NCBI GenBank assembly: GCA_019090795.1
Contig: JAHRVG010000102.1
Location: 1-41,332 of the forward strand
Length of the DNA stretch: 41,332 bases
Direction of reading: 5' to 3'
DNA from: Paracoccaceae bacterium
GTDB lineage: Bacteria; Pseudomonadota; Alphaproteobacteria; Rhodobacterales; Rhodobacteraceae
The notes beneath the pieces are model-generated. The model saw only the letters and a program-made list of their open reading frames with translations. It did no database searches and was not told the origin of the DNA. Numbering within the stretch: position 1 is the first letter of the stretch; every line of letters starts with the position of its first letter. The position numbers were made by a program, and so were the translations under genes. Below are positions 21,168 through 27,226 of this stretch, piece after piece.

Positions 21168-21743
21168 TTAATAAACGCCACCATCCTCAACGCGTTTGGA
21201 GAAATCGGTTTCCCCGCCCGCTGCTAATAATCTCGCCTGACCAACCCAATCGTCGCGGGTTACCCGGCCTTTGAAACCTTCCAGATTTGCATCCACCCAA
21301 GATACTTCATCGGCGCTCCAAGCGGCAATTTGGTCAAAGTGGTAAAAACCCATCTCGTTACACATGATCTCCATCTTCGGGCCGATGCCCTTGATCATCT
21401 TGAGATCGTCCGCCTTGTCATCACGCGCCGCACTCAGGGCTACCGGTTTGACACCTTCATCTTCGTTAGCTCCCCCAATCACTGCGCCGCCAGACTCCTC
21501 GGCAACGTCTGGTGATCCAGTCACAGAACCGGATTCGCCTTCCTGTGACAGACAGAAGTAACTCGGCAACACCCAACCAGCAGAAACAGCGGCAATCAAA
21601 CCAAGTACCAGCACAATGATCATCGGCCAATTGGCCCAAGTGACCAGTATTGCCACTACCAGCAGGCCCAACAGAATTGATACCAACCAACAGATTGCCG
21701 GGCATGAAGCCCCAAAAGATCCTTTACTCCCGTTTCCCATCAT
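21168..21743 (-). CDS. Membrane protein with C-terminal helix-hairpin-helix-like domain shared with NuoE
   Basis: A 191-residue protein (190 if the second of two tandem ATGs is used; AGGGAG precedes both). Residues about 17-58 form two membrane helices (LVSILLGLLVVAILVTW and MIIVLVLGLIAAVSAG). A Gly/Glu/Ser-rich linker follows. Residues 103-191 form a domain beginning LSAARDDKADDLKMIKGIGPK, a helix-hairpin-helix-type IKGIGPK turn. By hand alignment about 53 of 76 positions are identical to residues 270-345 of NuoE encoded just upstream. The domain therefore duplicated within this operon. It may dock this protein to complex I or bind nucleic acid; neither can be decided here. Confidence 0.85.
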   Translation of the reverse strand: MMGNGSKGSFGASCPAICWLVSILLGLLVVAILVTWANWPMIIVLVLGLIAAVSAGWVLPSYFCLSQEGESGSVTGSPDVAEESGGAVIGGANEDEGVKPVALSAARDDKADDLKMIKGIGPKMEIMCNEMGFYHFDQIAAWSADEVSWVDANLEGFKGRVTRDDWVGQARLLAAGGETDFSKRVEDGGVY

Positions 21744-21770: not shown

Positions 21771-22838
21771 TCAGCCCTCTTTAGGGGCCTTTTTGGAAAA
21801 AGCAGTCTCGCCCCCGCTAGCAAGGATTCTGGCCTGTTCCGTCCAGTTATCTCGCACGATTCTACCCTTAAACTTCAGTCGATTATCTACCCATTCAATC
21901 TGTTCCGCAGACCAATTTTCGATCTGGTCAAAATGGTAAAAGCCCAAGTCGTTCAACACGCCTTCCAGCTTGGGCCCAACGCCCTTAATCAGCTTCAAAT
22001 CATCCGCACCGCCATCACGCGCAGCGCTCAGAATTTCAGGCTCAGCCTCGGCAACGGTCTGTGTCTCCGCTGGCTTTGTGTCTCGTTTTTTGGTCTCGGG
22101 CTTCTTTGCTACCACATCGGCAGCAGCAGCCTTGCGCACCCAAGGTGTCAGCAAGGGCACTTCGGTGCCGTCAATCCGTTTTATGGTATCGCCAATGTCG
22201 GTGGCCAGTGTCGCAGAGGCATTCAGCGGGGCTTTGCCCGCCTCATACTCGGCCAGCGCAATGGCACCGCCCAAAGGTTCTGCTGCATAACGGCCATTCT
22301 GCGGGCCCGGTGTGGGTACTTTGCCCGCAGCCAGCTCATCCAGAATTTCGTTGAACCGTTCCGCGCTCAGATCCTCGTAGTAATCCTTGCCGACCTGAAC
22401 CATTGGCGCGTTGGTGCAAGCCCCAAGGCACTCGACCTCTTCCCAAGAAAACTTGCCATCTGCCGAAATTTCATGCGCGTTTGCTGCGATACGGTCCTTA
22501 CAAATCCCGATCAGATCTTCCGCGCCACAGATCATGCAGGACAGCGTGCCGCACACCTGAATATGGGCTACAGAACCAACAGGTTGCAGTTGGAACATAA
22601 AGTAGAAAGTGGCCACTTCCAACACGCGAATATAGGCCATACCAAGCATATCGGCGATATATTCCAGCGCAGGCTGCGTAAGCCAGCCCTCTTGCTCCTG
22701 TGCGCGCCACAAAAGCGGGATCACGCCAGAAGCCTGACGGCCTTCGGGGAATTTGGTCAACTGACCTTCGGCCCAAGCCTGATTGGCAGGGGTAAAAGCG
22801 AAAGTCTCGGGCTGAGTATGATGGAGACGACGTAGCAT
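21771..22838 (-). CDS. nuoE: NADH-quinone oxidoreductase subunit E with long C-terminal extension
   Basis: A 355-residue protein, about twice the usual NuoE length. Residues 1-165 form the thioredoxin-like [2Fe-2S] subunit (cluster N1a), with Cys ligands in [11 protein letters not shown] (C-x4-C) and [10 protein letters not shown] (C-x3-C). A linker rich in Ala, Lys and Glu follows ([15 protein letters not shown]). Residues 270-355 form a helix-hairpin-helix-like domain ([16 protein letters not shown]) shared with the next gene. I chose the ATG at 22838 because GAGG lies nine bases upstream and the product begins [17 protein letters not shown], as in related NuoE. The longer frame to 23111 lies inside nuoD. 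Extended NuoE is known in alphaproteobacteria. Confidence 0.95.
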
Positions 22839-22887
22839 TAAATGAACCTCAAACCTGTTTTGGCGGGGTGTAGTCGGATTGCGAAAA

Positions 22888-24099
22888 TCACCGGTCGATC
22901 TCCCCGAACACAACATCCAGCGATCCGATGATCGCGGCGACATCTGCCAGTTGATGCCCTTTGGCCATGTAATCCATCGCCGCCAGATGCGGAAATCCGG
23001 GCGCACGAATCTTGGCTTTGTAAGGTTTGTTGGAACCGTCCGAGACAAGGTAAACACCGAACTCGCCCTTGGGGGCCTCAATCGCAGCGTAAACTTCACC
23101 CGCAGGAACATGGAAACCTTCGGTATAGAGTTTGAAGTGGTGGATCAGTGCTTCCATAGAGGTCTTCATATCGGCGCGTTTTGGCGGCGTCAGTTTCCCC
23201 CGTGCCAGTACATCGCCCGGCCCCTCTGCGTTCATCTTGTCGATGGCTTGCAGCATGATTTTCACGCTTTCGCGCATTTCCTGCATCCGGCACAGATAGC
23301 GATCAAAACAGTCACCGTTCTTGCCCACAGGGATCATGAAATCGAATTCATTGTAGCATTCGTAGGGCTGTGCCCGGCGCAAATCCCATGCCATGCCCGA
23401 GCCGCGCACCATCACGCCGCTAAAGCCCAGATCAAGGGCTTCTTGCTCGCTGACGATGCAGATATCCACGTTACGCTGTTTGAAAATCCGGTTTTCGGTC
23501 AGCAACCCGTCAAGATCATCAAGGAAACCCGGGAAGGTTCCACACCAAGTCGCGATGTCATCCAGCAACGCCTGAGGCAGATCCTGATGCACCCCACCGG
23601 GGCGGAAATAATTGGCATGGAGACGGGCGCCACAGGCGCGCTCGTAAAATTCCATCAACAATTCACGCTGCTCAAACGCCCAGAGCGGCGGTGTCAACGC
23701 ACCAACATCAAGCGCCTGCGTGGTCACGTTCAACAGGTGGTTCAGGATACGGCCGATTTCAGAATAGAGCACCCGGATCAAAGAGCCTCGGCGCGGTACT
23801 TCAGCCCCGGTCAGCTTTTCGATTGCCAGACACCAGGCGTGCTCCTGATTCATCGGTGCTACGTAATCCAGTCGATCAAAATATGGCAGGTTTTGCAGGT
23901 AGGTGCGGCTCTCCATCAGCTTTTCAGTGCCACGGTGCAGCAGGCCAATATGCGGGTCACATCGCTCTACCAACTCGCCGTCCAACTCCAGCACAAGGCG
24001 CAAAACGCCGTGCGCCGCCGGATGCTGGGGACCAAAGTTCAGGTTGAAATTACGGATTTGTTGCTCGTCCGTGGTCGCGTCTTTGAAAGAACCGTCCAT
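22888..24099 (-). CDS. nuoD: NADH-quinone oxidoreductase subunit D
   Basis: A 403-residue 49-kDa-type subunit that forms the quinone-binding site with NuoB. Characteristic segments are [21 protein letters not shown] (quinone-site His), [47 protein letters not shown] and the C-terminal [19 protein letters not shown]. The ATG at 24099 shares its A with the stop of the 36-codon ORF upstream (TAATG), so translation is coupled to the small ORFs. Confidence 0.97.
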
Positions 24100-24209
24100 T
24101 ATTTACGCCCCTTGGCAGCCACTTTGGCTTGTTTGGGTTTGGCCGCAAGCGCAGCCAAAGCCACGCTCAACAGGGTAGCCCCGATCAATATTCCGGTTGC
24201 AAAAGTCAT
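24099..24209 (-). CDS. Small single-helix membrane ORF C (nuoC-nuoD interval)
   Basis: A 36-residue ORF that starts at an ATG overlapping the mini-ORF stop (ATGA) and ends by overlapping the nuoD start (TAATG). It encodes one hydrophobic helix ([21 protein letters not shown]) followed by a strongly basic tail ([13 protein letters not shown]). AAAGGGG lies upstream at a good distance, within the 33-bp repeat. The basic tail should face the cytoplasm. The perfect coupling on both sides supports real translation. No family is recognised. Confidence 0.6.
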
Positions 24210-24238
24210 GCTTTCGCCCCTTTCAACTTGTCGCCGTA
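24206..24238 (-). repeat. 33-bp direct repeat, copy 2 (coupling cassette)
   Basis: Matches 24438-24470 at 29 of 33 positions. It encodes [10 protein letters not shown] and contains a purine-rich ribosome site plus the overlapping stop/start (GCATGA) of ORF C. Confidence 0.85.
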
Positions 24239-24241
24239 CAT
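24206..24241 (-). CDS. Eleven-codon mini-ORF with an ideal ribosome site
   Basis: The [14 protein letters not shown] begins in a TGATG overlap with ORF B and ends in an ATGA overlap with ORF C. Its ribosome site AAGGAGGA (24251-24258) is nine bases upstream, the best one I saw in the window. Ten of its residues copy the C-terminal tail of ORF A ([10 protein letters not shown]). It looks like the detached tail of a duplicated gene that still serves as a translational relay. Whether the peptide has a role of its own is unknown. Confidence 0.5.
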   Translation of the reverse strand: MYGDKLKGAKA

Positions 24242-24441
24242 CACTCGGATTCCTCCTTGAAGGCAACAATCCACAATAAAACCAGCGCAACCACCGGAAT
24301 AATCGCAAATATCGCGACCCATGACGGTATGCCACTGCGCGGCAAAAGCCGCCAAAAAGGAACCACCAGCAAACCAGCCATAACCAGAAGCCAGAGCAAG
24401 CCGCCGCCGCCCATATTGAACCCGTACCCACCAAACATCAT
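24241..24441 (-). CDS. Small two-helix membrane ORF B (paralog of ORF A)
   Basis: A 66-residue ORF starting at tandem ATGs (24441 and 24438) that overlap the stop of ORF A; AAGGGAG lies just upstream. After a Gly-rich N-terminus (FGGYGFNMGGGG) there are two hydrophobic helices separated by PFWRLLPRSGIPSW, and an acidic end (FKEESE). The core aligns with ORF A: PFWRLLPRSG against [10 protein letters not shown], and VLLWIVAF against ILLWLLAY. A tandem duplication is the simplest reading. Relative to ORF A, 23 bases that include a strong ribosome site and a stop codon separate its core from the YGDKLKGAK tail. Function unknown; probably a small accessory membrane protein of complex I. Confidence 0.65.
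   Translation of the reverse strand: MMFGGYGFNMGGGGLLWLLVMAGLLVVPFWRLLPRSGIPSWVAIFAIIPVVALVLLWIVAFKEESE
24251..24258 (-). promoter_or_regulatory. Strong Shine-Dalgarno of the 11-codon mini-ORF
   Basis: AAGGAGGA on the minus strand, within the last codons of ORF B, nine bases before the mini-ORF ATG. It is near-complementary to the 16S anti-SD and is the main support for translation of the mini-ORF. Confidence 0.6.
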
Positions 24442-24470
24442 GATTTCGCTCCCTTCAACTTGTCGCCATA
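24438..24470 (-). repeat. 33-bp direct repeat, copy 1 (coupling cassette)
   Basis: Encodes [10 protein letters not shown] and the stop of ORF A, with AAGGGAG acting as ribosome site for ORF B. The second copy lies 199 bases downstream in the operon. Three of the four differences are synonymous changes and one is Ser/Ala. Confidence 0.85.
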
Positions 24471-24623
24471 TGCCAGCAGCCACAGCAATATCACAGCGCC
24501 CGCAGGCAGGATCAACGCGCCAAACGCGAGGTATTTGTTATAGCCTGCCGCCGGCAACAGCTTGTAAAACGGCGCAATCACCACTGCGGCAGAAATCAAA
24601 TACCAAAAGGCAAGCGTTGTCAC
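24438..24623 (-). CDS. Small two-helix membrane ORF A (paralog of ORF B)
   Basis: A 61-residue ORF with a GTG start overlapping the nuoC stop (GTGA). Two hydrophobic helices ([17 protein letters not shown] and [21 protein letters not shown]) surround a short polar loop [11 protein letters not shown]; the tail [10 protein letters not shown] is basic. It is paralogous to ORF B next to it. The codon-level fit of start and stop to its neighbours argues that it is real. It is likely an inner-membrane protein made together with complex I; no known family is recognised. Confidence 0.65.
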
Positions 24624-25231
24624 TTGGCCGCCTCCGGTTTTTCGTCACCGGGCAGGATGTATTTCGCACCCTCCCATGGCGACATAAAGTCAAACTGGCG
24701 GTATTCCTGAACCAGAGAAACAGGTTCATAAACAACCTTTTTCTCGACTTCGTCATAGCGCAGCTCCACATAACCCGAGGTCGGGAAATCCTTGCGCAAC
24801 GGATGACCTTTGAACCCATAATCCGTTAGGATACGGCGCATATCCGGGTGATTGTCAAACAGGATGCCATACATATCAAAGACTTCACGCTCGTACCAAT
24901 CGGCCGAGGCGTGTACTCCGGTAATACTGGGCACCTGCTCATCTTCGCGGACGTGAGCCTTAACCCGGATACGCAAATTGGAATACATCGACAGAAAGTG
25001 GTAAACCACCTCGAACCGTTTGTCACGATCCGGAAAATCCACCGCTGTAATATCTATCAAGGTCGAAAATCGGGTTTCGCGATCATTCTTGATACACTCG
25101 ACAAACCGCGGCACCGCGGCGCAAGAGACAACAACCGTCAGCTCTCCGACATCATTAACTTCTGCTGACAAAACATCCTGCGAGTTACCCTCTGCCAGCC
25201 GATTGCCCAATTCCTCAAGTGCTTTGGTCAT
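24620..25231 (-). CDS. nuoC: NADH-quinone oxidoreductase subunit C
   Basis: A 203-residue 30-kDa-type subunit of the peripheral arm. The signature is [37 protein letters not shown], here intact around residues 120-158. The N-terminal half contains [27 protein letters not shown]. It starts four bases after nuoB, and its stop overlaps the GTG of ORF A. It is separate from nuoD, unlike the NuoCD fusion of enterobacteria. Confidence 0.97.
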
Positions 25232-26365: not shown

Positions 26366-27226
26366 ATGCCAGCAAGACTCCCTTACTTGAAAACGCGCAC
26401 ATTCCTGCTCGGAGTCGGGGCACAGAAGGCGGGCACGACCTGGCTCTATTATTATCTCGACAAACATCCCGATGTTTACATGTCGCCGATCAAGGAAATG
26501 CATTTTTTCGGCAACCGTTCGGGGGCCGAGGCCTGGCCGCTCAACAGTTTTCGCAAAAAACTGCGTGAACGCAAGAAACGGCAGCAAGAAAGCAATCCGC
26601 AATCCGAAAAGCCGTTCATTGCCCTGCGCGAACGCATCCGCATGCAAGGAAATATGGCCGCCTATAAGCGGTTCTTTCGCAAACGGGTGGGGAAAAGGCC
26701 TGTCTTTGGTGAAATCACCCCAGCCTACAGCAAGTTGCCCTTAGATGAGCTGCGTTTTGTGCAGGGACATTTCCCGAAAACAAAAGTAATATTCCTGATG
26801 CGCAACCCAGTCGACCGTTTGTGGTCACAGATGCGCTTTTCCGAGCAGTTCAACAACATTGAGGAGCTGGAAAACAGGTTGGACAGTGTTTTGGATCAAT
26901 CGGTGTATGCAGAGCGCGTCGATTACATTAAAACCATTCACAATCTGCGCAACGTGTTTGCCCCCGAACAGGTGCACTATGAATTCTACGAGCATCTGTT
27001 CACCGACGACGCGGTGGTAAGGTTGTGCAACTTTTTAGAAATCCCCTACAAACCGGCGAATTTCTCTAAAAAGCGCAACGTATCAACCAAAGTGCCGCTC
27101 AGCCCGCTGCTCCGCCCCAAGGTGGTCACTGCCCTGCGCGGGCAGTATGATTTTGTGATGCAGGAATTTGGCGACCAGATCCCCAAGAGCTGGATCGAGG
27201 ATATGCAGAATAGCCCCCAACTTTAA
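26366..27226 (+). CDS. Sulfotransferase family protein (PAPS-dependent)
   Basis: A 286-residue cytoplasmic or membrane-associated sulfotransferase. The 5'-phosphosulfate loop is GAQKAGTTWLYYYLDKHPDV, and the 3'-phosphate site is FLMRNPVDRLWSQMRF (R...S pattern), as in heparan N-sulfotransferase-like bacterial enzymes. A basic insert, RKKLRERKKRQQES, lies near residue 75. It would transfer sulfate from PAPS to a glycan or small molecule; the acceptor is unknown. It diverges from nuoA across 240 bases and converges with the HMG-CoA lyase gene, with which it shares TTAA as reciprocal stop codons. The ribosome site is weak. No partner sulfation genes are seen nearby. Confidence 0.88.
   Translation: MPARLPYLKTRTFLLGVGAQKAGTTWLYYYLDKHPDVYMSPIKEMHFFGNRSGAEAWPLNSFRKKLRERKKRQQESNPQSEKPFIALRERIRMQGNMAAYKRFFRKRVGKRPVFGEITPAYSKLPLDELRFVQGHFPKTKVIFLMRNPVDRLWSQMRFSEQFNNIEELENRLDSVLDQSVYAERVDYIKTIHNLRNVFAPEQVHYEFYEHLFTDDAVVRLCNFLEIPYKPANFSKKRNVSTKVPLSPLLRPKVVTALRGQYDFVMQEFGDQIPKSWIEDMQNSPQL

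Follow-up and report, generated by a model that had tools for sequence, protein, structure and literature searches.

The window, by which we mean the whole 41,332-nt stretch of DNA analysed here, is contig JAHRVG010000102.1 (positions 1 to 41,332, forward strand) of the Paracoccaceae bacterium assembly GCA_019090795.1, classified in the Rhodobacteraceae. On its minus strand the complex I genes nuoC and nuoD are separated by 520 nt, counted from the nuoC stop to the nuoD start, and the order there is nuoC, ORF A, ORF B, an 11-codon mini-ORF, ORF C, nuoD. The features discussed below are as follows.

24620..25231, minus strand: nuoC, the upstream partner (Complex1_30kDa, E 2.2e-45), whose stop overlaps the start of ORF A (GTGA)
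24438..24623, minus strand: ORF A, 61 aa with a GTG start, a predicted two-helix hairpin membrane protein
24438..24470, minus strand: first copy of a 33-nt tail repeat, the end of ORF A (its last ten codons and stop), carrying the Shine-Dalgarno-like site of ORF B
24241..24441, minus strand: ORF B, 66 aa, a membrane protein of the B type (the nuoC–nuoD location), predicted to fold as a two-helix hairpin
24252..24258, minus strand: AAGGAGG, a Shine-Dalgarno-like site within the last codons of B, 10 nt ahead of the mini-ORF start
24206..24241, minus strand: the mini-ORF, 11 codons, a probable relic of a junction between the A tail and C and a possible translational relay
24217..24223, minus strand: AAAGGGG, lying within the mini-ORF, a Shine-Dalgarno-like site that serves ORF C (-7.0 kcal/mol)
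24099..24209, minus strand: ORF C, 36 aa with a single hydrophobic stretch and a basic tail
22888..24099, minus strand: nuoD, the downstream partner, whose start overlaps the ORF C stop (TAATG)
26366..27226, plus strand: a Sulfotransfer_3 gene (Pfam E 8.5e-17; profile of interval sulfotransferases, E 5e-58), divergent from nuoA and outside the chain

Stops and starts overlap by 1 or 4 nt at all five junctions from nuoC to nuoD: GTGA between nuoC and A (24623-24620), ATGA between A and B (24441-24438), TGATG between B and the mini-ORF (24243-24239), ATGA between the mini-ORF and C (24209-24206), and TAATG between C and nuoD (24101-24097). The unbroken chain of overlaps described in an earlier, sequence-only reading of this DNA is therefore real. 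Beyond nuoC and nuoD, a NuoE stretch in the window is repeated in the next ORF at 60% identity (21168-21743 and 21771-23111); NCBIfam matches the repeated stretch to the last part of a NuoE model, the ORF that carries it is followed by a DUF5337 ORF, and a similar arrangement occurs in the relative G409 (locus L273).

A search with ORF A among 394 genomes of the same family gave matches in 91, the window's own genome counted; for comparison, the N-terminal 100 residues of NuoD match in 379 of the 394. Outside the window ORF A matches 93 places, and in the 29 of these examined for neighbours nuoC lies nearby every time and nuoD in 27, the stretch available for the other two being without nuoD. 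Within the genus, 30 of 33 genomes have a NuoC match, and among these 30 loci an A gene with the tail YGDKLKGAK occurs in three genomes: the window's, G409 (L033) and G422 (L034). Both relatives keep A and C, C having the same length and nuoD overlap as in the window, and G409 keeps B as well. Frame-breaking changes in relatives, which the sequence-only reading had named as grounds for refutation, are absent from A, B and C in the aligned DNA of G409 and G422. Pairwise dN/dS (NG86; window, G409 and G422) is 0.09–0.14 for A and 0.13–0.20 for C, and 0.14 for B between the window and G409. Differences among the three genomes fall mainly at third codon positions, the least clear pair being the window and G422 in C (2, 5 and 12 differences at positions 1–3). 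The earlier claim that these ORFs are coding thus holds for A, B and C, with no frame breaks and dN/dS of about 0.1–0.2; the comparison shows all three to be real genes under purifying selection, and a non-coding status is ruled out by dN/dS and the codon-position pattern.

AlphaFold2 models of A and B, built from alignments of relatives, have mean pLDDT values of 85.7 and 85.3, with helices at residues 2–25, 30–38 and 40–59 in A, and both proteins are confidently modelled as two-helix hairpins of a single uncurated family. Scans of Pfam and NCBIfam placed no family, DUF805 and DUF5684 included, over its cut-off for A or B; the best Pfam match of B was PrgI, at 17.5 bits against a cut-off of 27, and DUF805 was matched by one of 18 hairpin family members, at E 0.16. 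Purifying selection extends across this family: 245 of 255 pairs have usable dS (0.1<dS<2), with a median dN/dS of 0.17 and a maximum of 0.57, and the 255 pairs together show 3385, 1558 and 7163 differences at codon positions 1–3, figures from non-independent pairs chosen at ≥72% protein identity, which biases them toward low dN/dS. A profile–profile comparison joins the family to 16 small hairpins of other Alphaproteobacteria (probability 98.2, E 4e-14), which come from a class-wide draw; there, 28 of 337 genomes gave matches, counting the window's own genome and one from its family. One of eight scanned hairpins from these other Alphaproteobacteria exceeds the DUF805 cut-off, and an RlmN gene is present in 10 of the 28 class-draw loci (three named by NCBIfam, the rest by similarity). 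Hairpin-like small membrane proteins stand side by side near rlmN in L170, L172, L174, L181, L182, L186, L187 and L190, their relation to A and B being judged by profile and, in L174 and L187, partly by eye. Since several alphaproteobacterial hairpins thus form adjacent pairs, tandem hairpins appear to be a recurring theme.

Searches against solved structures returned no convincing relative. With the sequence of B the best matches were a lectin (E 0.0017, no stretch passing alone) and mammalian NDUFC1 (E 0.28 and 1.1), with A a transporter (E 6.9), and with the family profile nothing up to E 10. A fold search with the B model gave 15 matches, none at E ≤ 0.001; hairpin chains of the Rhodobacter sphaeroides RC-LH1 complex were among them (E 8.7–9.9) and provide no evidence. 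Viral contigs yielded a single doubtful 25-residue match to A.

The sequence-only reading held that A and B are paralogs, that B looked like a tandem duplicate of A, and that the mini-ORF is the tail of B, cut loose and kept as a translational relay. Homology of A and B is confirmed: with A as the query, B is recovered at E 2.2e-7 and 35% identity, and the family profile finds A and B in their own genome and nothing else up to E 10. This homology favours duplication, as does the position of the tail copy directly after B, but B is 80% identical to the B of G409 and 56–72% to eight B-type proteins elsewhere, against 32% to A. The two are also far apart in a tree of 115 hairpin proteins with midpoint rooting, where the first node that joins them holds 95 of the proteins and has support 0.09; the nearest relative of the window's B is G409's B, followed by B-type proteins of other genera, and the smallest clade that holds both B proteins includes five others. 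A and B are accordingly not mutual nearest relatives, and the tail YGDKLKGAK is seen on A alone, no B-type protein among the best 80 of 141 relatives ending in this way. We regard the duplication as very improbable. The same two observations, the distribution of the tail and the distance between A and B in their family, indicate that the mini-ORF is not B's own tail.

What does follow B is a copy of the end of A. The last 33 nt of A (24470-24438) recur at 24238-24206 with 29 of 33 positions identical, exactly the repeat that had been described. None of 300 dinucleotide-preserving shuffles reaches this value (the best has 24). Among 162 nuoC–nuoD intervals of at least 150 nt, a set that counts some genomes twice, no ungapped 33-mer self-match is higher, the next best being 28; chance is thus not the explanation. 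An assembly artefact was considered and judged unlikely, the copies differing at four of 33 positions. The mini-ORF itself was seen in the window's genome alone, one of the three with this A gene among 30 congeneric NuoC loci; it is absent from both G409 and G422. Gene order in the three genomes is A–C in G422, A–B–C without a tail copy in G409, and A–B–mini-ORF–C in the window. The copy agrees with the A tail of G422 at 31 of 33 positions and with that of G409 at 30, compared with 29 for the A of its own genome, and it is joined to C in the same way as A is in G422. In place of a lost tail of B, then, the mini-ORF is a copy of the A tail fused to C as at the G422 junction, and these likenesses lead us to read it as the remains of an A–C junction.

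Most likely, as far as these alignments allow, the mini-ORF is a fossil of an A–C arrangement that was left behind when B came between A and C. In an ancestor, or in a recombining haplotype, A would have been followed directly by C, with the ribosome site of C inside the tail of A as in the sister species G422; once B came to lie between them, one copy of the tail would have stayed with A and the other in front of C. B may have taken either of two routes, gain between A and C in the lineage of the window or descent from an ancestral B combined with a recombined, B-less haplotype. A competing history makes A–B–C ancestral: G422 would have lost B by recombination between its two flanking ATGA junctions, and the window would have gained its copy of the A tail before C; the shared ATGA, or a B-less haplotype as exchange partner, might have provided the means. 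The tree of NuoC and NuoD for 29 of the 30 genus loci gives (G409,(window,G422)), a grouping also counted in favour of the fossil reading, in which G422 is nested; the protein nearest to the window's B is that of G409, and joining the A/B ATGA to the B/C ATGA would produce a junction of the G422 form. Against this, support in that tree is just 0.87 and it reflects one locus rather than whole genomes, the two B proteins share their smallest clade with five others, and the fusion of the mini-ORF copy to C already has the G422 form. We consider an ancestral A–B–C order a substantial possibility, somewhat short of an even chance.

Whether the fossil does anything is a separate question. Among eight starts compared (nuoA, nuoB, nuoC, nuoD, A, B, the mini-ORF and C), Shine-Dalgarno duplex energy is strongest at the mini-ORF (-11.4 kcal/mol), followed by A (-9.5), these values using the standard anti-Shine-Dalgarno sequence, which may differ from this genome's 16S rRNA. 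The sequence-only reading had called this the best ribosome site in the window; it is the best of these eight. The AAGGAGG concerned (24258-24252) also encodes K-E-E of B, and its counterpart in G409 stands 7 nt ahead of ORF C; the site therefore did not arise to serve the mini-ORF. If the mini-ORF is disregarded, 31 nt separate the stop of B from the start of C; with it, the overlaps are -1 and -4. Gene pairs joined by ATGA or TGATG are described as coupled by termination–reinitiation in the available text of PMC10666635, and a gap of 31 nt would be expected to abolish coupling on the results excerpted from Huber et al. for E. coli and Haloferax, an expectation that may not hold in the present organism. 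The ATG of the mini-ORF overlaps the stop of B and its TGA overlaps the start of C, so that a ribosome ending B could restart, read 11 codons and restart at C, and we infer that the mini-ORF would in this way restore the coupling that the gap would be expected to lose. Its layout fits that of a minigene or booster, with its own upstream Shine-Dalgarno site (spacing 10 nt), an internal site near its stop and the -4 overlap with C. A role as translational relay is therefore plausible on sequence grounds.

The alternative to such a relay is an inert scar, a 33-nt copy of the A tail that is open and overlapping by accident, with C using its own Shine-Dalgarno site and the 11-mer having no role. 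The presence of the mini-ORF in a single genome fits this, as does the survival of C's AAAGGGG in usable form (-7.0 kcal/mol), from which C might start without a relay; moreover, the copy has a one-in-three chance of falling in the frame of A, and the overlap then comes free. The persistence of -1 or -4 spacing at every junction, the strongest of the eight Shine-Dalgarno sites at the mini-ORF start, and a copy still close to the tails of relatives (30 and 31 of 33) are harder to reconcile with a scar. Taken by itself, the scar falls only a little below an even chance, and between it and a working relay we see roughly even odds. If the relay works, the operon would have absorbed the insertion of a gene without losing the translational coupling of subunits of a large complex, the scar itself having become the link.

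The junction between nuoC and nuoD is variable well beyond these three genomes. Among the best 80 of 141 relatives, a B-type match lies between the two genes at all 78 named loci that could be evaluated (76 confirmed by position and two by inspection; the other two of the 80 have nuoC, with nuoD not in the stretch); Roseovarius, Mameliella, Marivita, Jannaschia and Tranquillimonas are among the carriers. Of 99 intervals drawn from the family, 17 are bare, 38 contain at least one hairpin, 50 contain a sulfotransferase (17 of these have both), and 11 have neither yet are at least 40 nt long. This family draw was non-random, consisting of 99 entries near the top of a NuoD-similarity ranking of the 394 genomes plus G245, chosen for its two known hairpins; G236 and G344 (both partial) and G116 (already seen in L003, with a hairpin and two sulfotransferases) were passed over, two of the 100 loci gave no interval, and the window was added to make 99. 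Leaving out the window and G245, hairpins occur in 36 of 97 intervals and sulfotransferases in 50 of 97. The 30 intervals of the genus comprise 18 bare, seven with neither kind of gene and five with a hairpin, G120 (L051, L073) and the window being counted in both the family and genus sets. In the congeners L036, L041, L045 and L048 the junction is occupied by other short ORFs (36–53 aa), which look hydrophobic on visual inspection and resemble ORF C in kind.

In 38 intervals holding a lone hairpin, the first start is at -4 after nuoC in 35 and the end is at -1 before nuoD in 34; at bare junctions nuoC and nuoD overlap by -1 in 29 of 35. The overlap geometry is kept whether the junction is bare or filled, and by this measure the junction acts in Rhodobacteraceae like a cassette site, which small co-translated genes would enter and leave with the chain of overlaps unbroken. 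The nuoC–nuoD interval of L165 (G493), a locus from another alphaproteobacterial family, likewise holds a hairpin relative, so this location may be old or may have been reached twice.

The second class of genes at this site was unexpected. Sulfotransfer_3 genes lie inside nuoC–nuoD in the 50 family-draw intervals counted above (L067, L076 and L083 are examples), and the window's own gene at 26366-27226 is homologous to them by the profile match already listed. A sulfotransferase divergent from nuoA is found in the window and in four of five further genus loci (L273 being the exception), and in eight of 18 evaluable loci among 20 more from the genus, one of the eight being in two pieces. Position and homology associate Sulfotransfer_3 genes with the complex I locus. 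A search of titles and abstract openings found no paper on such a link, and nothing on sulfotransferases or small ORFs located in the nuoC–nuoD interval, older operon papers being outside its scope; nor do the accessible portions of PMC8115037 mention either in that position. The wider result is this cassette site with its sulfotransferases, a larger finding than the relay.

Their location, overlaps and hydrophobicity suggest that A, B and the single-helix microprotein C most likely serve complex I as small accessory or assembly factors, which would be made in step with the hydrophilic-arm subunits NuoC and NuoD. The hairpins are evidently not needed for complex I, as they are missing from 61 of the 99 family-draw intervals (17 of them bare) and from 25 of the 30 in the genus (18 bare). 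They might instead be unconnected to the complex, the junction serving as a permissive and well-expressed landing site, as it would for the sulfotransferase genes. Such a site would explain the patchy presence of hairpins, its sharing with sulfotransferases (50 of 99) and the related hairpins that other Alphaproteobacteria carry close to rlmN (10 of the 28 loci of the class draw); it accounts less well for the restriction of B-type proteins to nuoC–nuoD in the loci examined (all 78 that could be evaluated, among the best 80 of 141 relatives), and for the want of a third hairpin copy in the window's own genome. We hold a mere landing site to be possible, on balance doubtful. The sequence search of the PDB gave no convincing relative (mammalian NDUFC1 appeared at E 0.28), and it bears on complexes from species other than those shown here as carriers. 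For the Paracoccus denitrificans complex I structure, the parts of PMC11522691 available to us name NDUFS4, NDUFS6, NDUFA12 and a PIMT as extra subunits, which would count against accessory subunits of the hairpin kind if P. denitrificans carries a hairpin gene.

Taken together, the evidence makes it fairly probable that the junction is a cassette site holding the complex I accessory hairpins A and B together with C, all under selection, and that the mini-ORF is an A–C fossil that restores coupling. The fullest version has three parts: a natural ribosome relay built from wreckage that runs from B through C to nuoD, a clade-specific accessory or assembly role in complex I for A, B and C, and a cassette site, shared with sulfotransferases, whose ATGA ends would allow genes to be exchanged with translational coupling retained. 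As a whole we think it unlikely. The mitochondrial ancestor is assigned to the Alphaproteobacteria, and the cassette site names concrete candidates for small complex I accessory factors in this group; the named carrier strains (Roseovarius, Mameliella, Marivita) allow these candidates to be tested.

Several known systems invite comparison. The small, DUF805-like hairpins of other Alphaproteobacteria are likewise two-helix membrane proteins and often tandem, but they occupy other loci, many beside rlmN, whereas A and B lie between nuoC and nuoD. The complex I operons of Paracoccus denitrificans and Rhodobacter capsulatus contain unidentified reading frames between nuo genes, and so share the presence of extra ORFs with the operon described here. 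For the mini-ORF, the closest parallels are short ORFs placed ahead of a gene. The bicistronic design resembles synthetic short-ORF boosters. In such boosters, as set out in the available part of PMC13255528, a short nonsense ORF likewise carries an internal ribosome site and stops next to the target start, one construct consisting of AUG plus ten codons; they are designed parts in E. coli, whereas the mini-ORF is natural and embedded in a chain of six overlapping ORFs. In the minigene mg2 of the axe-txe operon, too, a tiny ORF that has a ribosome site of its own precedes an operon gene and acts in cis, but mg2 has two codons and stops 15 nt before txe, compared with 11 codons and a -4 overlap here (PMC8708949). 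Termination–reinitiation gene pairs show the same -1 and -4 overlaps and the same need for short distances if coupling is to occur (PMC10666635, from the text available); the difference is that here the chain would run through an 11-codon ORF copied from the tail of an upstream gene.
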